From Cochliopodium minus (taxonomy: Eukaryota; Discosea; Himatismenida; Cochliopodiidae): a stretch of DNA of 20,815 bases. The position numbers were made by a program, and so were the translations under genes. Where the stretch lies: assembly GCA_024220525.1 (NCBI GenBank), contig JAMYWO010000188.1, positions 1 to 20,815 on the forward strand, written 5' to 3'. Below are positions 1 to 20,754 of the stretch, one piece after another. The notes beneath the pieces were generated by a model. That model was not told the DNA's origin. It saw nothing but the letters and a program-made list of their open reading frames with translations, and did not search any database. The stretch's first letter is position 1. The number at the start of each line of letters is the position of its first letter.

Positions 1-150
1 TTTATTTTTTATTTTTTATTTTTTATTTTTTATTTTTTATTTTTTATTTTTTATTTTTTATTTTTTATTTTTTAAATATTTTCTTTTTATTTTTTATTTT
101 TTATTTTATTTTTTATTTATTTTTTTATTTTATTTTTTATTTATTTTTTT
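1..150. repeat. A/T tandem repeat (ATTTTTT)n and derived low-complexity DNA
   Basis: About the first 73 bases are a nearly perfect 7-base repeat of one A and six T. From there to about 150 it becomes irregular T-rich sequence with single A interruptions. It lies just downstream (on the minus strand) of the splice donor of the ZIP exon, so part of it is probably intron. A long repeat at the very edge is also where an assembly would break. Confidence 0.9.
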
Positions 151-152
151 AC

Positions 153-320
153 CTGTCGCAACAGCCAAGACTATAGCAGAAATGAACTCCGAAACGTCAT
201 CGGAAACAGAAAGATCGATGGCACTACCCAACAAAACTCCAAAAGGGGTCATGAAAGAAACTAAAATGATCTCTATCAAGTATTTCTTGAATGGTGTTTC
301 CACTCTGGCCAAGTTTATTC
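153..320 (-). CDS. ZIP-family zinc/iron transporter, single internal exon (partial)
   Basis: The exon encodes about 55 residues that resemble the middle of ZIP (SLC39-type) metal transporters: a short cytoplasmic stretch reading GINLARVETPFKK, a membrane helix containing SFMTPFGVLLGSAI, then a second helix ending in AVATG. ZIP proteins move zinc or iron into the cytosol across the plasma or an organelle membrane. The exon ends in a good donor (CAG|GTAAAA, G at 153), and the next residues in the family (usually TF-Y-V) would lie beyond the window start. The acceptor is read as AAAAAAG before 320. No upstream exon can be seen between 321 and 567, which is pure low-complexity DNA, so the first half of the transporter is missing. 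It may be displaced, lost, or lost in assembly. Family assignment is fairly secure; completeness is not. Confidence 0.65.
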
Positions 321-475
321 CTTTTTTGATTTAAAAAAAAAATGGTAAAAATAAAAAATCCAAAATAAAATAAAAATAATCAAAAATAATAAAATAAAAA
401 GATAATAATAATCATAAAATAATCAATAAATAAATTTAATTGAAAAAAATAAAAAATAAAAAATAAAAATAAAAT

Positions 476-506
<31 letters not shown>

Positions 507-567
507 TAAATAAGAATAAACAAAATTAAAAAAATGAAAAATAAAAATAAAAAAACATAAAATTATT
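321..567. other. A/T low-complexity spacer, no gene seen
   Basis: The plus strand is A-rich with irregular AAAAAT and AAAT units. There is no open frame of mixed composition on either strand and no candidate ZIP exon. It serves as 3' flank of the ROCO gene. Confidence 0.7.
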
Positions 568-3500
568 TTACTTGTTTTCTATCAATAAATACTTTGACAT
601 ACAGTTTTCGCAGTTGGTGGAGTGTTTGGTGTAGAGAGTCGGCAAGAAACAGCTCGCGCACAAACATTTGATCTTTTTCTTTTCTTCTTTTTTGTTGAAG
701 AGTTGCAAAGGGGTAGACCTTTCATTCTCAATCGATTTTTTTTTAACTAACAAAATTAAAAAATAAAATAATCAAAACAAAAAATTAATAAAAAATCATC
801 ATTGAAATATAAAAATTAGTTCAATCATTAAATATAAAATAAAAATTTAAAAAAAATTTGTTCAATCATGAAATAACAAAAAAATAGAAAAAATAAATAA
901 ATAATTTGAATGTAAAAAAAAATCATTAAAAATAAATAATAAAATAAAAAAATCATTTAAATTAATTAAAATAAATAAACAATTAAATTTGAAAAAAATA
1001 TTAAATAATAAATTTTAAATGTTAAAAACCTTCGTAAATAATATGTGAATCTTTGGGGTTCTTCTTCCCTTTGTTGAGCCATTCTGACACGAATTTTTTG
1101 ATGTTCTTCTGGAGTTTGAGAAAGAGGATTTGGAGATTGAAATGAGACTTTAAAATGATTTGCATAGTTTCCTTTTGGGAATTCTCCTTTAAAATGATCA
1201 AATCAACTATTATGGACTGGAAGTCATCTTAATAAAATTACATTAATTTAATTTTTTCAAATTTTTTAATTTTTAATTTTATTTTAGTTTCATCTTTAAA
1301 TTGACAATCTTTAAAAATTTTAAATAATTTTTAATTTTATTTTTATTTTTTATTTATTATTTAATAATCATAAAAAATTTAAATAATTTATTTTAATTTA
1401 TTTTATTTTATTTTTATTTTATATTTTTTTTTTCATTTTTTACCCAAATTTTTTTCTTTAAAATTGAAATAAAATCCATTGACCCAATACCTCTCATCCA
1501 ACATGACAAAGTTTTCGTTTTTGAGGAAAGATTTACGGAGTCTCAAGAACAAAAGTTTCCAGACAGAAGAAGGTTTGAAGTCAAAGTAATATATGATCTT
1601 CCACTCTTGGTTTTTCTCTATCTTCTTTAGTTTTGTTCCATTTACAAAAATGTCTTTTGGTTTATTGTTTGGAAAAAGGAAAGGAACCTAAGAAAAAATG
1701 AAACATTAAAAATAAATTATAAACAAAAAAAATGAGTAAAAAAATAAAATGAATAAACAAATCAAACAAAATTAATAAAATATTCAAAATATAAGAATAA
1801 ATAATTAATAAGAATCCAAAAATAAAATCTATAAAAATAAAAATAAAAATAAAAATAAGAAATATAATTTGATAAAAAAATGAAATATTCTAATCGAATT
1901 AAAAATTAAAATGAAATAATAAAAAATAAATATATTAAATATAAAAATATTAAATATTAAATATAAAAAATATTAATGTTGGAAAAAAAATTTACAATGT
2001 ATGTTTGTGAAACCTTGAAATTTCCATTAAGAGTTTTATCAACCTTGTTTTTCTCAATGGGCAAAATCAAGTCAAATTTCAACAAAATATTCCTCAAATA
2101 GTTGAGTTTGTCCATATTCTCGCCCAAAATCTTCTCGAAAATCTCCCCCAAACAAGCCTCGTTGATGAAATATATGGAATGGCAGATGTCTTTCTTGTCC
2201 GTGATGAATTTAGTGTCAATGAACTCTGTCACTTTTTCCACCACTTGTTCCAAGGAAATGAGAAGTCCTTCGTAGCTGAGCTTGTCTATTTTTGATTTTT
2301 TCAGCTCTTCTTCATTATTCCAAATTTCCTTCATTTAGAATTTAATTTATTTTAAATTTTTTTTTTTTGCAATATATTTTTAATTTAAAAAAAATTAATA
2401 AAATAAGATTTTTTTTTTTTCATATATTTTTAATTTTAAAAAATTAATAAATTTAATTTCAATTTATTTTATTTTTTAATTTTATTTTAAATTATTTTCA
2501 ATTTATTTTTATTTGAATATTTTATGTTGATCATTTCTTTAAATTTTTTTTTTTACGTCCAAAGAAATGTTCCTGCTGCTTCTTCCTTTTAAAAGTGATA
2601 TTGCCTGCTCTACTGTTTTAATAGCATTGGAAGCCTTCGAGTTGTTTGCTTCTTTTAAAGAGTACATCATTTTTTCGTACAAAGATCCTATTCTCCTTCT
2701 TCCATAATCCAAAATACTTTTGAAAACCTTTGAAAAAAAAATATTAAAAAAAAAATCAAAAAAATATGTTAAAAAAAACAAAAAAATAAAAAAATAAAAA
2801 AATTTTATTTTTTTTTACATTGTTTAAATATCCAGGAGAAGAAATGACAACACTGTTAAGTAAAGGATGGTCAAAGTATACAATGGTTCCCAATGTGTTT
2901 AAGTCTATGAGATGTCTTTCCAATATCTTTCTATCGAAAATTTCTTTTTCCATTCAAAAAAATTTTTAAAAAAATAAAAAATAAAAAATAAAAATAAAAA
3001 TAAATAAAAAATAAAAATGAAAAATAAAAAATAAAAATAAAAAATACCTTCTTTATGTTTGCTTTTAATTTCATTGATTTTCTCTTCAATAAATGAAACA
3101 TCAATGAAAGGATTAATAAATTTGTTTTCTGGATTTTCAGTAGACAATTTTGAATGACTTTCAATAACTACAAAAAAATAAAAATTATTCAAAAAAATAA
3201 TTAAAAAAAAATAATTAAAAAAATATATTTTTTTACATTCATAAACTAATTTGTGATCTAAGGTTGTCATTACATTATTTTCTACATTATAATACAATTC
3301 GGAGAGACTTTGATGAAGCTTCTTTATTCCAGATTTTTCCAGGTCAAAGTCTCTGTTGTTCACAACATGGAAAATGAATTCATCTTTCAAAAACTCTACG
3401 TTGAGAAATTTCAATTTGATTTTGTTTTCAACAATGACTTGTTTAATCACTAAAAAAATAAAAATGAAAAAATGAAAAAATAAGAAATAAAAATAAAAAT

Positions 3501-5111
3501 AAAAAATAAAAAATAAAAAATAAAAAATAAAAATAAAAATAAAAATAAAAAATAGATAAAAATTATTATTAAATCAATAAAAATGGTTTACATTCATTGA
3601 TTAGTTGAAGTGATTGATTTATTTTGTTTTGGTCGTATCCCATGAACGTTTTGTACTTGTCCCTCAAAATATCATACTTATTAGCAACAAGTAGAATTGT
3701 AATTTTCCTTCCGACGTGAGTCTAATAAAATTCATAAAAAATAAATCATAAAATTTTCAATAAATTTAAAAAAATAATTCTTAAAAAAATAATTCATAAA
3801 AAATTTTGTTTAAAGAAACATTTGCTATTTACCTGTAGAAAATGGAACCAATATAGCAATTTGTTATAAGAAACGAGATTGTTTGATTCAACTGAACAGT
3901 CAAAAGCCAACAAATAAACACACCCAGCACTAAAAAAAAATGAGTGCGCAACATGATATTCTAATGATTAAAATTAAAAATTAAAAAAATAAAATGTGAT
4001 GATACCAAATAAAATAAAAAAAAAGAAATAAATACCTTCGTGTCCTAAAAAAAATTTTGAAAATGATTTTAATTTTAATTTTGACGAAAACTCTCTTTAC
4101 CTGCAAAATCCCAAATTGAAAATAACTTTTGGAAACAAAAATAAAATTAAATATTAAAAAAAAAAATAAAAAAAAAAAATTTAAAATTACTTTTCCGTCT
4201 TTTTCATCTCTCCATTGTATTATCTCAACTCCATGTGTCCTTTTTTTAAAAAAAAAAATAATTTAAAAAAAATTTTTTAAAAAAAAAAAGTATACATTTC
4301 TTCCTCCTTTTTTTCCGTTTGAGATTTTTTAAAGTATATTCTATTAAATTCTTCATTAGTTGTTCCAAGTAACCTGTTCCTCAAAGTAGTCTTTCCGACC
4401 TTTCAAAAAGAAAGAATGAAAATAAATTACATAAAATAATCAAAATAAAAAAACTTTAAAAAGAAATAAAAATAAAAAATAAAATGATAAAAATAAAAAA
4501 TAAAAAATAAAAAATAAAAAATAAAGAATTTAAAATAAAATATTAATATAAAATATTAAATATAAAATAAAAATAAAAATAAAAAATCAAAAAATAAAAA
4601 ATGAAAAATAAAATAATGAAAATAATGAAAATAATGAAAAAATGAAAAATTAAAAAGAATAAAAAATAAAATAGAAAAAATAACATACATTCTCACATCC
4701 AACTATCATCAATCTTATCTAGAAAATAAAATAAATGAAATAAATGAGAAAAAAAATTAATGACAAAAAAATTGTACCCCTTCAAAAGTCCTTCTTGTAT
4801 TTCCCATTTCCTTACCTTGATCGTATTGTATATAATACTCTTTCCCATTCTGCATGACAATACCAATCCCACTTCTCTTGCCGCCAACAATTTTTCCCTT
4901 GTAAGAATCTCCATTGAGAGTGTTTTTCATGTTGATTTGCCCATCTTTCGGAATTCCGTTCACAATTTCTCCTTCATACTCCCAAATACATTGCTCGTTT
5001 TCTCTCCATCTACACTTTCCCTTTCCACTGAAATGGTTTCCTTGTTGATAAGTCCCTTCCTTAAAATATAATATTTAAATTTAAAAATAAAAATAAAATC
5101 AAATCAAATAA

Positions 5112-5142
<31 letters not shown>

Positions 5143-6992
5143 TAAAAATAAAATATAAAATATAAAAAAAAAATAATAATAATAAAAAATAAAAATAAAA
5201 ATAAAAATAAAAAAAAAATTGAAATTAAAAAAATTAAAATATAAAAATAAAATATAAAAATAAAAATAAAAATAATAAAATATAAAAAATAAAAAAAAAA
5301 TGAAAAAAAAAATTGAAATTAAAAAAAATTAAAGATAAAAATTTTTTTACCCAAACGACAACATCACCATTGAATTCCTTTCCTTTTGATACAACTCCCT
5401 CTTTTATTTCCCCCTCAAAAGAAAATTTTTCAAAATCTATTTTCCCATTTCCATTCCACCTTAGACCCGAGACAAACTTTCCTTCAAAAATTTTCTTGTT
5501 GGATTTATCCAGTAGAAGTCCATTTCCATGTGGATTACCATACTTTGTTTCTCCAGAATACAAAAGTGAATTAATTTCTACCTATTGAAATTATTATTAA
5601 ATTAAATTAAATTTTATAATAAATATTTACTTTAATTTTAAATAATTATTGAAATATTTATTACATTTTTCACAGTTATTGAGTCACTTGCTTTAACTAC
5701 AAAATTGAAGGGAATGTTAAAGAATGGTTGATCTTTCAGGACCATTGTGTTCTTATTGATTGGAAGATTTTCTCCACTGTCACTCAACAAAACTCTTTTT
5801 TATTTTTTTTTTTTTTTGAAAATTTTTCAAGAATCAATTTTTTTAAATTATAAAAAAATCTCAAAAAAAAAATAATTACGTGGGTATTCCTAATAATAAA
5901 GTTTTAAAAAAAAAAAAAAAGAAAATTAAAGTATTTTTTTTTAACCATAAATACAATTATGCCCAAAATCTCCCTTAACCTGAAATCCTCGATGAAAACT
6001 CTTCAACAAAGAAGTTTCGTTTCTATAGATGTGAGCATACTCATGTGTCCATCGATCCAAATCTTCGTGAGATTTCCAAGTGTATACAACACTATTTTTG
6101 ATGATCAAGGAAGGAAATATTTCCCCCCTTAAATTTCCCTCGTTAGAAAAATAACGGATAAAATCTCCGACAGAACCTGCGTACTTGGTAAATTTGTGCT
6201 GAAAAAAAAGAGATTGGAATAGATCTGCTACAAAATTTTGGGAAGAAAAACTTGGATATCCATACAAATTTAAAACGTTCCATTTTTGGACAACTAAAAA
6301 GAGGATAACAATTTGTTTAAAAAACGAAAAATAAACAAAAATAAATGAAAATTAAATTATGTTTTACCTTCACAGATGATCTTTCTGTTTTCTTCCGTGT
6401 TTTCTATCATTGGTATTTCATCTCCGAAAACATTTTGAGGATAAAATAGAGCAGTTGCTTGGTTACTTTTATAATCAGAATAACAAACGAAACTGTTCAC
6501 AAATTGAAGAGATAATAGTTTTTAAAATAAAAAAATTAAAATAAATAAAGGTTTGAATATTCCACCTTGAATCATTCCAGTGCAATATCACATTGTTTAT
6601 TTGTACAGCAAGATATGTATTTCCAAAATCCTCTGTGAAATTGGTTACAAATTTTCCATATAATTTGTCAATCAAAGATGATACTCTATTCAGCTTTACA
6701 TACAATCTATCAGAGGCAAAAAATATTGAACTCGATTTCTCAATTTTATAATCAATTTAATTTACCTCACCACAATACTGTTCAAATTTTTTGATTCTGA
6801 AAATATATCTTCCTCTATTGTTTTGATATTTGTGAATCTATCAAAGAGATTCTGATCGAAATTCTCGAAAATAAGATAGAGCATCTCTATTATTTTCTTT
6901 TTTGAGTGATTAAATTTTTCAGGAAGGGGAAATCGTTTTTCCATCACTATATCTCCTTCTAATTTCAAAAAATCATTTATAATTTGATACAT
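568..6992 (-). CDS. ROCO-family protein: papain-like N-terminal region, MORN repeats, Roc GTPase, COR domain
   Basis: The chain has 23 exons, high to low: 6766-6992, 6566-6706, 6368-6492, 5946-6293, 5880-5889, 5665-5776, 5351-5581, 4778-5059, 4689-4718, 4296-4399, 4191-4239, 4101-4125, 4036-4044, 3833-3960, 3592-3721, 3237-3449, 3048-3167, 2819-2943, 2557-2727, 1996-2328, 1444-1687, 1030-1227, 568-746. All phases agree, giving 1177 residues. Residues 77-186 carry the motifs LAVQI...HWNDSSF and SSQNFV (see findings). Residues about 326-490 hold six or so MORN repeats, such as YSGETKYGNPHGNG and YKGKIVGGKRSGIG. Roc follows directly: GCENVGKTT (499-507), WDFAGHEEY (558-566), NKYD (621-624). COR follows: LGTIVYF (779-785), IVPFLFPNNKP (971-981), WVNGFYF (1039-1045). 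The C-terminus has four to five cysteines (CLCASC, CENC), possibly zinc-binding. No kinase follows COR, unlike LRRK2 or many amoebal Rocos. Roc-COR proteins are dimeric GTP switches. The start ATG at 6992 is the first in frame. Family call is sure; individual small exons are inferred. Confidence 0.88.
4036..4044 (-). other. 9-nt microexon completing the Roc G3 motif
   Basis: TTTTAG|GACACGAAG|GTATTT on the minus strand supplies the residues G-H-E between exon 4101-4125 (LFSIWDFA) and exon 3833-3960 (EYHVAHSFFF). Joined, they read WDFAGHEEY, which matches the WDFAGQEEY of Roc domains. Skipping it would leave the frame intact (phase 1 to phase 1) but delete three residues of the nucleotide-sensing switch. 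Confidence 0.8.
5880..5889 (-). other. 10-nt microexon of the ROCO gene
   Basis: On the minus strand, ATTAG|GAATACCCAC|GTAATT lies between two larger exons. It joins phase 1 to phase 2 and yields ...CIYGIPTGENL... across the junctions. Without it the flanking exons (5946-6293 and 5665-5776) are out of frame. Confidence 0.7.
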
Positions 6993-7277
6993 TTTTGAAA
7001 TTAGGGGTTTTTTTCTTACCTTTCTTTTGAAAGACAAAAATTTTTTTTTATTTTATTTTACAGATTAAGTGAAAATAATAAAGTTTGAAAAAATTATTCA
7101 GTTATATAACTGAAAAAAGAAATTGAAAGATATGTCATCAATTTGGAAACAAAAAGAGTCAGAAAGAAAAAGAGATTTTTTAAAATTTAAATCTTTTTAT
7201 TTTGTGTTTGTGAAAAAAAAAAAATAATATATTTTTAAATAATTAATTTATAAATATCCAGAAAAACAAAGACAAAA
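6993..7277. promoter_or_regulatory. Intergenic region upstream of the ROCO gene
   Basis: This is the gap between the end of UDP-glucose dehydrogenase and the ROCO start, both on the minus strand. It holds long T runs next to the ROCO ATG and an 18-bp perfect palindrome (7097-7114). A donor-like AAAG|GTAAGA at about 7017-7022 has no acceptor before the ATG, so a 5' UTR intron is not supported. No gene is seen. Confidence 0.4.
7097..7114. promoter_or_regulatory. 18-bp perfect palindrome
   Basis: TTCAGTTATATAACTGAA reads the same on both strands. It lies 105 bp upstream of the ROCO ATG and 163 bp past the stop of UDP-glucose dehydrogenase. The form suits a site for a dimeric DNA-binding protein, but that is inference. 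Confidence 0.4.
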
Positions 7278-9195
7278 TTATTTTCCAAGAACACGAGTAA
7301 TAAATCCGATCTTCTCCATGGTTTCAACATCAACAACCATACGACCATCAAACAAGAAAGCAGGATGTTGCATCTTGTCATAGATAGCTTGATAATCCAA
7401 AGTCTTAAATTGAGGCCATTCAGTACAAATGACAATAGCTTGAGCATTCTCTGCAGAAGCAATAGGATCAGTGGAAACAGTGATAGTAGGAAACAATTCG
7501 GTGATGTCCTTTTCTTTAACCTTTGGATCATAAACATGCACATTAGCCTTTTCTTCCAACAAGTATTTTGCAACGTTGAGAGCAGGAGATTCCCTGATAT
7601 CACCAGTGTTCGCTTTAAAAGCAAAACCGAGGATCAAAATTTTTTTCCCACGTAAATTGTTGTACCTATTCAATTAAAATTAATAATTTAAATGATATTT
7701 AAATTAATTCTTTTTTTTTCAGTGAAAAAAAGTTTTTTTTACATGGTAGAATAAATTCTTTTACAGAAAGTATCAGTTTGATAATCATTCATTTCTACAA
7801 CCATTCTCCAGTATTGAGCTACAAGTGGTAATTTGAGGGATTCGCAAATGTAGGTGAGTCCGAGTAAATCCTTTTTAAAGCAAGATCCTCCAAATCCAAG
7901 AGATGCTTGAAGAAAGTGAGGCCCAATTCTTTGATCTTTTCCTACACCCAAAGATACTTCAGAGATATCTGCTCCCTTAAAAAAAAAAAAGAATGATTTA
8001 ATAATTGATGAAATTTAACAAGGAAATAAGTATAATGAGGATACTGTTGAATATTTTACATAAAATTCTTTTTTTTTGAACTTTAATTGATAATCAATTT
8101 TTATATAATTTTATTCATTCAACTAATAAGAGATAAATATTTGTAATATATGTGATTTGTTAAAGTTTTTGAGAACAAAGTTAAAATAGTACTTTAATTA
8201 ACCAAATTTAAAATTTTTTTGAATCCAAATTTGAAATGAGGATATATTTAATTAAATATATGTTTGTGTATGAATAATGAAAATTTTATAAAATTTTTAC
8301 AGTCTTTTGGCAAATGATACTCAATGAATTGATGGATGAAATTCTTTGTGCAAGAATGGCATTTCCTGCGAGTTTAGTGAGCTCAGATGAGAATGTATTG
8401 ATGGTGATAATCTTGCTTTCAGGGACCCATTTGTTATACAATTTGGCCAATCTATTTGCAGCTCTTCTTCCACTCTCAGTCTTATCACTTCCCAAAATGA
8501 CTCTGTGTGGATCTTGTAAATCCTTGATAGCACATCCCTCTGCGAGAAATTCAGGATTACTGATGATTTCAAAATTAGGTGGTTTGGTTCCTCTTTTATT
8601 TGATTCATTGATTGCTACAAGGTTCAAAATCTCTTTCAAATTTTTCGCAGTTCCAACAGGTACTGTTGATTTTTCTACGATGATTTTATCTGTTTCCGCA
8701 TGAGTTGCAATTGCTCTTGCTACTGATTCGAATGCAGACAAATCATAAATCACATCTTTTCCTTCTCCATATGTTTTGGTACCAGTATTCACTGCAATCA
8801 TGATGATATCTGAATTTTTGATGTGGTGGGCCACTTCAGATGAGAAAAACAAATTTTTTCCTCTTGTTTCTTCAATCACATCTTGCAAACCTGGTTCGAA
8901 TATTGGCAAATCTTTTGAATTCCAAGCATTGATTCTGTTTTGATCGATATCTACAACTATGAATTTTGATTCTGGACAATTTTTTGCAAATATTCCCATT
9001 GTTGGTCCTCCAACATAACTAATTAAGAAAATTGGAATTAAATGATCAATATCAGCATAAAGTATCAAAAAAAAATTTTATAATTGAGTATCAATCCAAT
9101 ATAAAAAAAATATTTCCATAATTTCTTATAATTTCAAATTTTTACCCAGCTCCAATACAGCACACTGTTTCAACCCATTTTTTTTCTTCTTGCAT
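7278..9195 (-). CDS. ugdh: UDP-glucose 6-dehydrogenase
   Basis: The enzyme oxidises UDP-glucose to UDP-glucuronate with two NAD+, in the cytosol, feeding glycan synthesis. Four exons join in phase: 9146-9195, 8301-9018, 7743-7975, 7278-7665, giving 462 residues, normal for eukaryotic members. Visible marks are the NAD-binding GAGYVGGPT (15-23), split by intron 1; the IVEKSTVPVGT motif; the central ELTKLAGNAILAQRISSINS helix carrying the catalytic Lys and Asn; the catalytic cysteine in GFGGSCFKKD (C288); and the C-terminal UDP-binding domain with ILGFAFKANTGDIRESPA. Every expected catalytic residue is present, so it should be active. The start at 9195 is the only ATG ahead of the Rossmann motif and gives a short N-terminus (MQEEKKWVETVCC). 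Intron 2 (7976-8300) is long for this window and contains a 20-bp all-A/T palindrome at 8242-8261. The gene is divergent from a glycosyltransferase. Confidence 0.95.
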
Positions 9196-11501: not shown

Positions 11502-12875
11502 ATGTTTTCAAAAGTTGAAAAAACTTACAAATTTTGGTAATTTAAATTTCTTTATAACATTTAAAGATAAATTTTAGGATTTAGTGTTTTGGGAGATGAA
11601 TTTGTTGGAAAAAGCACTTTTATTGCATCTTGCTGCAAAAGTGAATGCTTCAAAAAAAAATTTTATAAAAATATTTTTTAATGAAATTCCCTTTTTTAGC
11701 TAGTGTGAAACAGACATATGAAAAATTTGATGGAAATAATTACTCGAGGTCAAAATAATCGTTATAAATTCAATTAGAAAAAAAAAAATTTAAATTTTCT
11801 TTTTTATAGATACATAAAGGTGGATGGGAGAGGTATTACGTTGGCTTTTAATGATAAGGATGGAAAAGACGTGAAAGATTACTATGAATTTGATGACATG
11901 ATAAAAGGAAAACAAGGATATTTCGTTGTTTTTTCACTGACGGACAAAAAGTCATTCGAGAGGGTTCCTTTTTACTTAGACCAAATAAGAAAACATAGAT
12001 CATATTTAGAAGAATCATACACAATAACACTAATAGGAAATGTAATTGAAAGAAAGTTGATAAGAACAGTTGATCCCTTTGACATCTCTTCTCTTTGTTT
12101 CAAAGAAAAAATGGAATATTTCGAAATTTCCTGTAAAGACGAAATAAAATGTGAAAAAAGTATTTTATATGCTTTGAAACAAACCTTTGTATATGAGAAG
12201 ATAAACAAGTTCTACTATTTTGTTGGAGAAAAAAATAAACTCCCCTTTCAAACAAGCTGGTTGAATTTTCCAAACTTTAAATTGTCAATCCCCAAAATTT
12301 ATCCTAAAATTTGGCAACTCATCTTTGATTATTTAACTAGAAACACAAATACTTTGAAAAAATGCAGATTGGTTTGTAAACATTGGTACACCTTTATCAG
12401 TGAGAAACACATGAAGAAAATAAACTATCCCAAATACTTTATCCCTCCTTCTTCTGCTTTGTTGGTTGACAATTATGTTCCCTATACTTGTTATGATAAA
12501 TTGATCAAAGCATTTCATATTGTGGATATGTGCGATTATCTGTCAAAACCTCCCACAGAATTAATTAAAATACTCAATCTTAGAACGAATGGAACAATAA
12601 AAGAACACAACCTAGATAAAGATCGTCTTGTCATCCTGTTTGCAAATTATCAAAATTTTGATTTGTATTTCAAAAACTTTGATAAACAAGAATTAAAATC
12701 ACCAAGATGGAAATCCAATGTAACAAGTGAAAATGCAAAAATCTTGGAGAAGGAGTTTTTTCCTTATGAAGTTTACTATTACGAAGGATTGGAAAATCTT
12801 GCCAAAAAAATGGATCCAACAAATTCAAAAATAATTTTGAAAGCTTTTTCCAGGAATTGTGATAAATTAAATTAA
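11502..12875 (+). CDS. Ras-like (degenerate) GTPase domain fused to an F-box
   Basis: Four exons: 11502-11536, 11585-11640, 11700-11748, 11810-12875; 401 residues in one frame. The N-terminus reads MFSKVEKTYKFCVLGDEFVG and continues KST, an intact P-loop (GDEFVGKST, 15-23). A Ras-like core follows: GYFVVFSLTDKKSFERV matches the helix-strand region after switch II. The DxxGQ switch is replaced by NDKDGKD, and the base-specifying NKxD has become GNVIERK (123-129), so nucleotide specificity or binding is probably changed. An F-box follows at about 208-248 (IPKIYPKIWQLIFDYL, then KKCRLVCKHWYTFI). F-boxes bind Skp1 in SCF ubiquitin ligases, so the G domain may act as substrate sensor or regulator; that is inference. 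The last 150 residues are unrecognised. The gene is convergent with the R3H/2H gene, with only 31 bp between stops. Codon use is like its neighbours. Confidence 0.8.
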
Positions 12876-16916: not shown

Positions 16917-17010
16917 TGCGTCAATATTAAATCACAATTTTTTTTCTCTGTTGATTTAAAAAAAAAAATTTGAAACTTGATCTTTCAAATATCACAATTT
17001 TATTAATCAA
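16917..17010. promoter_or_regulatory. Compact bidirectional promoter with an 11-bp direct repeat
   Basis: Only 94 bp separate the divergent Rab and F-box starts. ATCACAATTTT occurs twice, at 16931-16941 and 16991-17001, exactly 60 bp apart, each 10-15 bp from one of the two ATGs. Both copies point the same way. A poly-A/T tract lies between. Shared control is inferred. Confidence 0.45.
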
Positions 17011-17346
17011 ATGAAAAGAAAAGATGATAAGGATAAAATTGATAGTTCATTAGAAAAGAAACTTAAAGAAGAGAATGGATCTTTTTCATTATTATTTGGA
17101 TTCTATTGCAAAACAAGATCAAATGTATGGAAAGAAATAACAAAGTACCTATCTATTGAAGATATAATGAGACTATCCATTTGTTCCAAACAATTTTGGG
17201 AGATGATTAACAATGATATCAAGATATGGAAGCATATATCAAGCATCGAAAAGATAGATTCATTATTCGAGATATATCTGCAATACTGCAAAGACAAAAA
17301 TGGAAATTACAAAGATATCTTCAAGCAAATTTTGAACAGTAAAAAG
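17011..17346 (+). CDS. F-box protein, first exon (likely an F-box/ankyrin protein)
   Basis: The ATG at 17011 opens a 112-residue exon with a lysine-rich start (MKRKDDKDKIDSSLEKKLKE) and an F-box at about residues 37-78: NVWKEITKYLSIEDIMRLSI, then CSKQFWEMI and IKIWKHI. F-boxes bind Skp1 and tie a substrate-binding partner to SCF ubiquitin ligases. Three endings are possible. The exon may run to 17346 and splice with GTATGA to a 24-codon exon at 17423-17497 that stops there. It may use a donor at 17339 (phase 1), which fits the ankyrin exon starting at 17856. Or it may read on to a TGA at 17350. F-box plus ankyrin is a common pairing in protists, so the second choice is attractive, but the intron would be 517 bp with an ambiguous base inside. 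Confidence 0.72.
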
Positions 17347-17855
17347 GTATGAGAGATTACAAAGAAAAATATAAAGGAAATAGGTTCAATAATAAAATTT
17401 ATTGATTTATAATTAATAAAAGGTATCATTCTCAAAAATAGAATCTATCCATAATCAAAAAATATTTTCTAATCCATCTTCGATTATTAACAATTAAATC
17501 TCATTTTTTTTAATATCAATAAAGTTTAATTAATTTTTTGAATTAACCTTTTTCAATTTTGGGAAAGGAAGATACTAGAAATTCCATTGCAAATAAAATT
17601 TGGAGATTTAAATCTTANAATAAAAAAATAAAAAAATAAAAAAATAAAAAAATAAAAAAATAAAAAAATAAAAAAATAAAAAAATAATAAATAAATATGA
17701 TAAATGAACCTTTTTATTTTGTTTTTGAAGTTATTTTTAATATTAAAAAAAATATAAAAATGATTTTAAATATATTTTTTTTTTCAATTTGAACTCTTAA
17801 AATAAAAAAATAAAAAAATTGATTCAAAAAAAATTAAATTTTTAAAATTTTAAAG
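17347..17855. other. Intron or gap with ambiguous base and (TAAAAAAA)n repeat
   Basis: Three things sit here. At 17423-17497 there is a short open stretch after a usable acceptor (VSFSKIESIHNQ..., then TAA) that could be a last F-box exon. At about 17566-17617 there is unusually GC-rich sequence open in two frames (for example ILEIPLQIKFGDLN), which may be a piece of ankyrin-type coding sequence. It runs straight into the only N of the window (17618), after which an 8-base repeat of T and seven A extends to about 17686. The pattern suggests an uncertain assembly join at the repeat. Confidence 0.45.
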
Positions 17856-18878
17856 AACCAACGATTACGATGAATCATGTGTTGTCAAGCGAAAACGCCA
17901 TAAAATCATTCCCAATTCTCATAAAAGCAGGAATCAACCCAAATGTCCTCAACGTCAACTCCCACAACGCCTTCTTTACCATTCTACTGGGGAGGAATGG
18001 GGATGTTTCTCTTTTGAATGTTTTGAAGGAGAATGTGGGTTTGGAGGTTGGAGACTTAAATCATTTGGATTTTCATGGAAATTCTCTTTTGCATCATGTT
18101 TTCTTGAAGTCTGAGTTTTCTACTGAGGAAGTTGATCTTTTGTTGAAACTTCTTTTTGAAAAAGGTAAAAAAAAAAAAAAATAGAAAAAATAAAAAAATG
18201 AATTACAATAAAATAAAATAATTTACTTAATTTTTTAAAAAGGAGCCGATTTTTTTATTCAAAATATTTCTGGTTATTCCCCGTTCATGGAATTATTGAA
18301 GGTAAAAATTCTTTAAAATAAAAAATTAAAAAAAATTAATTAAATAATTTTTTTGAAGAGAGGACATGTTTGTTTTGCGTACGAAATATTGGAGAAAAAT
18401 AGCAGCAAAATAAATCAAAAGGATAACAAGGATTTAACATGCGTCAACCACTTTTTCATGAGATCTCCTTTCATAGGAACAAACAAGGGTTTTTATTACC
18501 ATGAATTACTTGTGTTAAAGATGTTGCAAAGTTTTGGTGCTGATTTGGATGTTCTTCATTGTTTTGTTGGAAAAAACTTTTATGAGGAAATTGATAATGT
18601 TTTATTGCTTGATAAAAGTGGTTTCTTTGAAATTTTTAGGCCTATTGGTAAAAAACATTTCATTCTTCATTTTATTTAATTTAATTTTTTTTTTACTAGA
18701 AAAACAACTTTTAAAGTCGAAAAAACAAAATGTAAAAAAAAAAAAGTTCTATATTTTATGTTTTTTTATTTTATGTTTTTTATTTTATCTATTAAAGGAA
18801 GTAGAAGTGGTGGTATTGAACAAGTTTGAGAAGATTGAAAAATCTTTAAATCAAAAATGGATAACCAGCATTTTATAA
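17856..18878 (+). CDS. Ankyrin-repeat protein, C-terminal exons
   Basis: Five exons link in phase: 17856-18164, 18243-18301, 18359-18647, 18700-18731, 18798-18878, ending in TAA. Ankyrin units are visible: FPILIKAGINPNVLNVNSHN, LNHLDFHGNSLLHHVF followed by LLLKLLFEKGADFFIQN, SGYSPFMELLKRGHVCFAYE, and LKMLQSFGADLDVLHCFVGK. Ankyrin repeats are protein-binding scaffolds. The first exon enters in phase 1 (EPTITMNHVL or KPTITMNHVL), so an upstream exon is expected. The ATG at 17870 could instead be a start, making a separate gene. The simplest reading is one gene with the F-box exon 0.5 kb upstream. The tail (EVEVVVLNKFEKIEKSLNQK) looks helical. The gene converges on the kinase gene, stops 104 bp apart. 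Confidence 0.75.
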
Positions 18879-18982: not shown

Positions 18983-20702
18983 TTATTTGTCTCTTAATCT
19001 TTTCATCAACAATAAGTTTTTTTTGTTAATAGATTTGATTTCTTTTTCCTTTATTTTGATCAATTCCAAGTTGAACTTTATTTCTTTTTCAATTGAAATT
19101 GACAGAGGATCTTTGTTGGTGTTTCCGTTCTCAAAAATTGGAAAGTCCAAAGGAGAAGATGATATATCATTTGAATCAATACTGATATCATTAGAATTTG
19201 TTTCAAAGCTATCATTCAAATCTATTTTCAATATATAATAAAAAATAAAAAATAAAAAATAAAAATAAAAAATGAAAAATAAAAAATTATATTACTTGTT
19301 AGTTTTAAATTATCAAACAAAGGAGATAATTGAACATCCTCAAAAGACTGCTCCAAAGTGCTAACAAAAGAATCATAAACCTCATCCCTCAAATGAGAAA
19401 TGTACTTCAACAAAAACTCAAGGCACTCGCCACAACTCAACCTCCTCCCCAAATCCTCCAGCTGCATCAACCCTAAAAAGTTAGAGATCTCAGGGCTGAT
19501 TTTTAATTTGGAATAACTTAAAATCAAATTGAAAGAAAGTCCCAAAGAATAAATGTCCGATTTGAGAGACTCTTCCTTTTTGTTTTGTTCTGGTGCGCTG
19601 TACTTGCCTGAAGTAGTCGCTATTTTGGTGTTGCTGTCTGCGTAGTCGAGTGTGCCGAAGTCTATCAGAATGAAGTGGAATCTTTTGCTTGTTTTGTTTT
19701 CAACAAACCTAATATAATAAAAAATCAAAAAATAAAAAAATAAAAAAATAAAAATAAAAATGAAAATCAAAAAAATCAAAAATAAAAATAAAAATAAAAA
19801 ATAAAAAATAAAAAATCAAGAAATCAAAAAATCAAAAAATCAAAAAATCAAAAATCAAAATAAAATTTAAAATTTAAAATATAAATTTTTGAATAATAAT
19901 GAACAAAAAATAAAAAAAATATTAAATCAAAAAATTGATTAAATTTTACATTATGTTCTCAGGCTTTATGTCTCTATGTATCAAGTTTTGTTGATGGAGT
20001 TTATTGAGCTCTTTGAGCAAAATGATCATCATCCTCACAAAATCATCTTCCTTCTTGAACATTTTGGAAAATTCAAAATGAAAATCCGACATATTTCCAC
20101 CTAATAAATTAAAAATAATTTAATATATTTTAAAATTAATTTATTTTAAATTTATTCATTTTAATTATTTTAATTTTAATTATTTTAATTTTAATTATTT
20201 TTAAATTATTTAATTATTTTTTTAAACCTTCGATCCATTCTAAAACAAGAAACTTGTCCTTCATACTTCTTAGCGAATCGTTTTCTATGCAGATCATCTT
20301 TGCTGTAATCAAGGTAGGAACCTTCTCTTTTATCAACTTTAATGAATCTATTTCCTTTTTCCATGCTTCCAAATACTTTTAAATAAAATTTAATTTTTTT
20401 ATTATTTTAAATTTTTAATTTTTAATTATTCAATTAATTTTTAATTTAATTTTCAATTTAATTTTCGATTATCTATTTAATTATTTCATTTAATTTTTTA
20501 ATTTCGATTATTTATTTGATTTTTAATTAATTTTCAATTATTCGGTTTTTTTAATTTATTTAATATATAAAAATTTTTTTAAAATACCCTTTGGGAGACA
20601 TTCATTATTTCTTTGATTGCCACGAGCTTCCCATTCTCCAAATTCATTGCCTTGAAAACTCTCCCAAATCCGCCCTGTCCAACAATCTTCAAAATCAGGT
20701 AT
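18983..20702 (-). CDS. Eukaryotic protein kinase, 5' end outside the window
   Basis: Exons 20588-20702, 20228-20375, 19950-20100, 19296-19708 and 18983-19221 join in phase. Order of motifs: glycine loop GQGGFGRVFKA, VAIKEI (ATP-binding Lys), helix-C EIDSLKLI, hinge FLVLEWIEGG, catalytic HRDIKPENIM, IDFGTLDYAD, activation end SGKYSAPEQ, and KSDIYSLGL. All catalytic residues are present, so it should be active. The first exon opens with a split codon (phase 2 acceptor, YLILKIVGQGG), so a start exon lies to the right. The N-terminal part missing is probably short, since the glycine loop is near a domain start. After the kinase domain comes a Ser/Asn/Asp-rich linker and a C-terminal Lys/Glu-rich coiled coil (KEIKFNLELIKIKEKEIKSI). 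The subfamily cannot be set; the HRDIKPEN and APEQ forms suggest a NEK- or other Ser/Thr-type kinase, not a tyrosine kinase. Confidence 0.88.
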
Positions 20703-20754
20703 CTAATCAAAAAAAAAAAATGAAAAAATGAAAATAAAAAAAATTTTAAAAAAT

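Follow-up and report, generated by a model that had tools for sequence, protein, structure and literature searches.

Degenerate MORN-like repeats joined to Roc-COR in a ROCO protein of Cochliopodium minus, and its relatives in the same genome

In this study, a stretch of 20,815 nucleotides from Cochliopodium minus (contig C188:1-20815, hereafter the window) has been analysed, and its minus strand was found to encode a ROCO protein in which MORN-like repeats directly precede the Roc GTPase domain. One unbroken spliced frame leads from the MORN-like repeats through the P-loop GCENVGKTT, WDFAG and NKYD to the COR region, as an earlier sequence-only reading of this DNA had described. The MORN-Roc-COR order of the gene is real, and it forms a new variant within the ROCO (Roc-COR) family. 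In our preferred interpretation, to which we assign a probability of roughly 60%, the gene is a ROCO member of a family expanded in this genome, with a core of MORN, RTFEG junction, Roc, COR and zinc ribbon that is usually followed by a kinase and often preceded by a head domain; the protein would work as a switch with a rigid arm, and the window copy would have a partner role.

Gene model

The assembly comprises 44.65 Mb in 598 contigs and the genome is intron-rich, with an A+T content of 75.9% in the window, 91.6% in the introns of the MORN-ROCO gene and 72.8% at the other loci analysed. By comparison, an A+T content of 91.86% in introns and of 80.65% in the genome, the latter above the value for the window, is given for Anaeramoeba ignava in PMC11550330. 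Exons were predicted with a gene finder written for this analysis, which uses the codon usage of long frames of the genome DNA and imposes GT-AG introns. A fused model on the minus strand, running from 6992 to 568, has 21 exons and 1184 amino acids (aa) and comes near to the span of the sequence-only reading. Started below 5941, the gene finder gave a shorter model of 17 exons and 883 aa with its first Met at 5745. We have placed the MORN-Roc-COR-zinc-ribbon gene at 568..5745 (883 aa if Met 5745 is the start), where our model is colinear with the paralogues. Its exons are 5745-5665, 5581-5351, 5059-4778, 4718-4689, 4399-4296, 4239-4191, 4125-4092, 3960-3833, 3721-3592, 3449-3237, 3167-3048, 2943-2819, 2727-2557, 2328-1996, 1687-1444, 1227-1030 and 746-568; the 1184-aa model has these same exons with the first one longer, and the largest modelled intron of the gene is 308 bases. 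The piece in front of the repeats, MVLKDQPFFNIPFNFVVKAS, looks by eye like the corresponding pre-MORN piece of the relatives and was assigned to the ROCO gene.

Fourteen paralogous loci were also modelled (L053-L058, L060-L064 and L068-L070), a non-random set chosen for MORN beside Roc or for long frames. Of the first 13 of these, 10 align colinearly with the window protein right to its C-terminal residues, sharing 31-39% identity across 805-929 columns; the weaker or shorter alignments are those to L064 (34% over 555), L053 (27% over 485) and L055 (22% over 573).

Domains of the encoded protein

The Roc domain (3659..4715, minus strand) is matched by Pfam PF08477 with 64 bits (cut-off 27), and its P-loop, DxxG and NKxD motifs are all intact, being GCENVGKT (4700-4689 plus 4399-4388), WDFAG and NKYD. 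In a sequence search of the PDB, the entries 3dpu, 6hlu and 8r4b ('Rab family protein'), which we take to be the Chlorobium tepidum Roco, ranked at the top and were followed by Rab11 and LRRK2 Roc among the best 60 of 221 matches at E<=0.01. By homology, a COR region with COR-A and COR-B follows Roc directly (1030..3449, minus strand, limits approximate): it is colinear with paralogues matching Pfam COR-A and COR-B, and two further stretches of 3dpu align in order at the COR-A and COR-B positions, weakly and without significance on their own. The relatives gave 20.8, 27.5, 28.5 and 34.0 bits for COR-A, all under the cut-off of 35.3, and 26.7 and 24.9 bits for COR-B, under the cut-off of 27, and in a profile search of the genome the COR-A cut-off was attained at the C4 locus (L061, 39.2 bits), on C461 (35.3 bits) and at further unmodelled loci. 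Closer to the end of the protein, a zinc-ribbon-like motif CASC-x12-CENC (601..660, minus strand) has the same pattern in 11 of the 14 modelled paralogues, and its cysteines suggest a zinc site.

In front of Roc, the gene is predicted from profile and fold to have tandem, degenerate MORN-like units, five clear and one weak, which span 4859..5560 on the minus strand with one intron interrupting them. These lie at 5560-5519 (weak), 5488-5441, 5419-5378, 5059-5012, 4978-4940 and 4903-4859, and correspond to residues 336-349, 360-375, 383-396, 406-421, 433-445 and 458-472 of the 1184-aa model. A MORN profile built from the paralogues only, and thus trained without the window, gave 23.6 bits to residues 286-500 of this model, whereas the highest score among 1000 shuffles was 9.4 bits. 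With the paralogue-trained profile the first unit scored 1.7 bits, which is chance level, and the other five 6.6 to 11.7 bits, so that of the approximately six units claimed earlier, five rise above chance and the first does not. The predicted structure of exon 5059-4778 also resembles MORN, and MORN1 structures are among its top three fold matches.

Several profile results weigh against this assignment of domains. Pfam recognised Roc in the spliced protein, but it returned no MORN match at E<=1 for the whole window protein and reported no COR. Searched as single exons, two exons reached 12.7 and 10.8 bits with Pfam MORN, under its cut-off of 22.5, and COR was again absent. A profile of the ordinary MORN units of the genome did not list the window, and it gave the pre-Roc segment 2.2 bits, rank 63 among 500 shuffles, and did not separate it from them. 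Because Pfam and the ordinary-MORN profile miss the units of the window, the MORN call rests on homology to the paralogues and on fold.

The MORN and Roc modules are joined with almost no linker, which agrees with what had been noticed from the letters. They are linked by a junction motif, NGKEYYIQYD...RRTFEG, and a conserved last strand (4778..4858, minus strand), and the alignment shows this junction pattern in 10 of the 14 modelled paralogues. An open frame of 141 aa in L054 (5164-5586) spans a MORN unit, RKRTFEG as the junction, the P-loop and WDFAG, and a 162-aa frame in L056 (6335-6820) spans MORN units, junction and P-loop. L069 carries, all in one frame of 1284 aa, a degenerate MORN stretch (missed by the profile), Roc (76.7 bits), COR-B (24.9 bits) and kinase (86.5 bits). 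The window protein was aligned with L054 from residue 354 (37% identity) and with L069 from residue 405 (31% identity), in both cases as far as the zinc ribbon. Since L054 and L056 hold a MORN unit and the P-loop in one exon, and L069 holds Roc, COR and kinase in one frame, the domain order, and with it the probable union of the exons above 4778 with those below 4718, does not depend on the splicing model.

The ROCO family in the same genome

The Roc-COR-zinc-ribbon part of the window protein, used as query, matched 84 stretches of the genome, which form 42 places including the window itself, a place being a cluster of matches on the same strand with gaps under 6 kb. Addition of a COR-kinase query (73 stretches) raised the total to 53 places, which is not a count of ROCO genes because that query picks up kinases too. 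At 9 of the 53 places a MORN match lies no more than 6 kb upstream in the same orientation, as judged with 49 representative positions from 127 MORN matches at E<=1, several of these positions being under the Pfam cut-off. Two more loci, L053 and L055, have MORN before Roc by gene model.

Kinase motifs (HxD and DxG) are present in 11 of the 14 modelled paralogues, with HTD and DYG in L063 and DYG in L064, and all three of these that were checked for it with Pfam (L056, L061 and L069) returned a kinase. It is missing in L053, whose stretch ends before a whole kinase, in L070, whose stretch is cut before the end, and in L055. An AlphaFold model of the L069 MORN-Roc-COR-kinase protein (1061 aa) was set aside: its mean pLDDT (predicted local distance difference test score) was 57.7, and since confidence was low over Roc and the fold matches were all kinases (best 50), it is uninformative on Roc-COR. 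When the PDB was searched with a profile from the alignment used for this model, the best 60 of 1909 matches were likewise kinases.

In the relatives, MORN sits between an exchangeable N-terminal head and Roc. Pfam identifies RCC1 heads in L054, L056, L057 (RCC1_2, 29.7 bits), L060 and L063, leucine-rich repeat (LRR) heads in L061 and L062, where only a MORN remnant then stands before Roc, and an ankyrin head that is strong in L070 and weak in L069 (18.5 bits, under cut-off). No head was assigned in L053, L055, L058, L064 and L068, and some paralogue models fuse neighbouring genes at their ends, as with an apparent thioredoxin in L053. The earlier view that MORN simply takes the position of the LRR is not supported, as these relatives carry MORN behind RCC1, LRR or ankyrin heads; in the window protein Pfam found no LRR, and the MORN-like units directly precede Roc.

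Some further features of these and other loci were observed. L068 and L069 have by eye an extra cysteine-rich RING-like or B-box-like stretch C-terminal to the kinase. A Roc match of 51.8 bits at C1:633812-634150 falls in an open frame with a listed length of 14711 aa, and matches of the COR-kinase query at C32:86654-87982 fall in one with a listed length of 4360 aa.

The missing kinase and the contig end

The frame of the window gene ends after ...KYLLIENK, where the relatives read ...LLIEKEFALL...GGFG. Here an in-frame TAA stop (570-568) overlaps a donor-like GTAAAAT (571-570), and at this site (568..571, minus strand) either the protein terminates or an intron begins whose downstream kinase exons are missing; 11 of the 14 modelled paralogues read on into a kinase here. 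The contig begins at window base 1, and because it ends only 567 bases past the stop, kinase loss and truncation are both possible. No kinase was detected by tblastn in window 1-7000 with 11 family kinases including their zinc-ribbon flank; only the flank itself was matched (666-571, E 4e-4 at best), the next place had E 0.10, and the best match within 1-600 had E 7.9. The sole kinase found in the window, at 20704-18983, is the end of a second ROCO-family gene. Thus the claim that no kinase follows COR holds for window 1-7000, but it has to be read beside the kinase motifs of most modelled relatives and the nearness of the contig end.

Past the stop lies a lone internal exon of a ZIP-like zinc transporter (151..321, minus strand; Pfam Zip 21.9 bits, cut-off 35.1; with a 46% identical protein match on C139), whose 5' exons were not seen. 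The DNA of this exon has no second match in the assembly, and the ZIP paralogue locus L067 gave no usable gene model. The gene finder also proposed to splice the end of the ROCO gene in frame to this exon; this was rejected, because the acceptor used lies inside the exon and the natural one is out of frame by our own reading. Either a rearrangement removed the kinase and cut the ZIP gene as well, or the assembly has joined the wrong sequences at this end of the contig.

It is a serious possibility, somewhat short of even odds, that the window copy is in fact a full MORN-Roc-COR-kinase protein in which the stop at 570-568 is an intron start and the kinase exons have been lost by a contig break or misjoin within the next 570 bases. 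The stop and the GTAAAAT donor overlap where the paralogues continue into the kinase, donors of this type recur among the gene models, the ZIP-like exon stands without its 5' half at 321-151 as if two genes had been joined or cut, and the contig starts at base 1. However, the family kinases gave no match here by tblastn, only 567 bases are left and the introns of the gene reach at most 308 bases. L055, which is also MORN-Roc, likewise gave no kinase match in the approximately 3.5 kb that follow it (lowest E 0.33). If the kinase does lie past the contig end, the window copy would be an ordinary member of the family.

A decaying, kinase-less copy with no function appears improbable. It has neither the kinase nor a head domain that could be recognised, and its neighbour at the contig end is an incomplete ZIP-like gene, which would suit decay, but 17 exons keep an open frame with GT-AG splice sites (imposed by the gene finder), and the G-motifs and the zinc-ribbon cysteines are kept.

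Proposed mechanism

Roco proteins have been described to pass through a monomer-dimer cycle with nucleotide (PMC6337361), and by analogy the window protein may be a nucleotide-controlled dimerisation switch. The MORN sheet would be stacked on the first Roc strand and, with almost no linker, would form a rigid input arm. As the conserved junction leaves so little linker, a contact made by MORN should be felt by Roc. Hence the MORN arm could make a protein contact or a dimer whose state is passed to Roc-COR, the output in the paralogues being the kinase. The window copy as assembled, lacking a recognised head or kinase, could then act as a regulatory partner of kinase-bearing relatives, with which it would pair by way of MORN and COR.

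This preferred reading treats MORN as a protein-contact module, which is more likely than a membrane anchor. The sequence-only reading had instead suggested that the MORN repeats may draw the protein to the lipids of a membrane, making Roc-COR a membrane-recruited switch. The supported MORN fold of the pre-Roc exon speaks for this idea, but we regard it as unlikely. In the accessible portion of PMC7725318, TbMORN1 is reported to bind individual phospholipids, yet to show no membrane or vesicle binding; MORN proteins are described there as forming dimers, and the repeats are called protein-protein interaction modules. Moreover, the MORN units of the window are degenerate, and no pointer to lipid was seen in the sequence.

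A bolder and rather doubtful extension concerns the whole family. RCC1 is the exchange factor of Ran. MORN-Roc might be a fixed rigid supramodule at the centre of a ROCO-kinase family whose sensor heads are exchangeable plug-ins, and in which the RCC1 propeller (L054, L056, L057, L060 and L063) would be a built-in exchange factor or regulator of the Roc on the same chain, giving a single-chain cascade of guanine nucleotide exchange factor, GTPase and kinase; kinase-less copies would again be partners through MORN and COR.

Upstream exons and neighbouring genes

The sequence-only reading had started the gene at 6992, and this start could not be confirmed. With moderate confidence, the four exons at 5941..6992 (minus strand) probably form a gene of their own, upstream of the ROCO gene and coding for a protein of about 289 aa that has no Pfam match at E<=0.01. 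Modelled alone, this part has a frame ending in ...GHNCIYG-stop at 5941. The gene finder leaves fusion and two genes undecided, because the scores of 991 for the fused model and 758 + 226 for two genes are nearly equal. Relatives of the upstream part were found in the same genome as 44 stretches, including 5 that are the window itself, and they are clustered on C93 and C3. A query of 120 residues with the native end matched 31 stretches, one of them the window; the matches reach the native end or come near to it on C488 (to residue 120), C3 (119), C587 and C215 (118), and C382 and C3 (117), and the others end at residues 108-116 or match earlier parts only. For the 25 positions of these relatives that were checked, no ROCO place was found closer than 15 kb. 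We have taken 6992-5941 as a separate gene because members of its family are found apart from ROCO genes, and in some of them the similarity runs through the native end of the frame.

The second ROCO-family gene (18983..20704, minus strand) shows its protein kinase end (Pfam 79.8 bits) and has its upstream part beyond the window; it lies 12 kb from the first on the same strand. The remaining neighbours include an ordinary UDP-glucose dehydrogenase gene on the minus strand (7278-9195, by gene model and by Pfam on exon 8286-9077). On the plus strand, one open frame at 11778-12875 reads as a fusion of a Ras-like GTPase (45.4 bits) with an F-box (21.7 bits, cut-off 20.5), and at 16981-18878 an F-box-like start (21.7 bits, under the cut-off of 24.3) is followed by apparent ankyrin repeats recognised by eye.

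Comparison with known systems

No earlier description of a MORN-ROCO was found in the open-licence literature, in agreement with the sequence-only reading, though an unnamed database entry with the same order may exist. In a survey of 1231 ROC sequences (PMC11378527), the neighbours named in the available text are LRR, ANK, TPR, kinase, death, TIR and helicase, with no occurrence of 'MORN', though that paper also refers to as many as forty domain combinations in animals, shown in a figure. The word is also absent from the accessible text of PMC4104024, PMC8923023 and PMC6337361.

Entamoeba IMLRK (inactive myotubularin-LRR-ROCO-kinase, PMC4104024) offers a parallel from another protist, which likewise has several ROCO kinases with a head at the N terminus that is new; there, however, myotubularin and LRR precede Roc, and the accessible part of the paper does not mention MORN. 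MORN1 proteins of Trypanosoma, Toxoplasma and Plasmodium, junctophilin and radial-spoke proteins share the predicted fold of the pre-Roc exon, whereas in the window MORN is fused to a GTPase and its units are degenerate and under the Pfam cut-off. The Chlorobium tepidum Roco and the MFHAS1-type LRR-Roc-COR proteins (group 1) resemble the window copy in having Roc-COR without a kinase, and 3dpu is its best PDB match; in the window, though, MORN rather than LRR stands directly before Roc, and the protein has a zinc-ribbon-like end.

LRRK1, LRRK2 and the Dictyostelium Roco kinases (group 2) share with most of the modelled paralogues a repeat domain, Roc, COR and a C-terminal kinase, and the WDFAG of switch II and the Roc sequence are also alike. 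Here, in contrast, MORN-like repeats lie between head and Roc, the heads include RCC1, a zinc-ribbon-like motif links COR to the kinase, and no kinase is seen in the window copy. For LRRK2, a central question is how the repeats that precede Roc communicate with the GTPase and the kinase. A MORN-like repeat beside Roc, with heads swapped among RCC1, LRR and ankyrin, suggests that contact with LRR is not needed for a Roc-COR-kinase protein, and this family provides natural variants for testing which of the elements ahead of Roc governs the switch.

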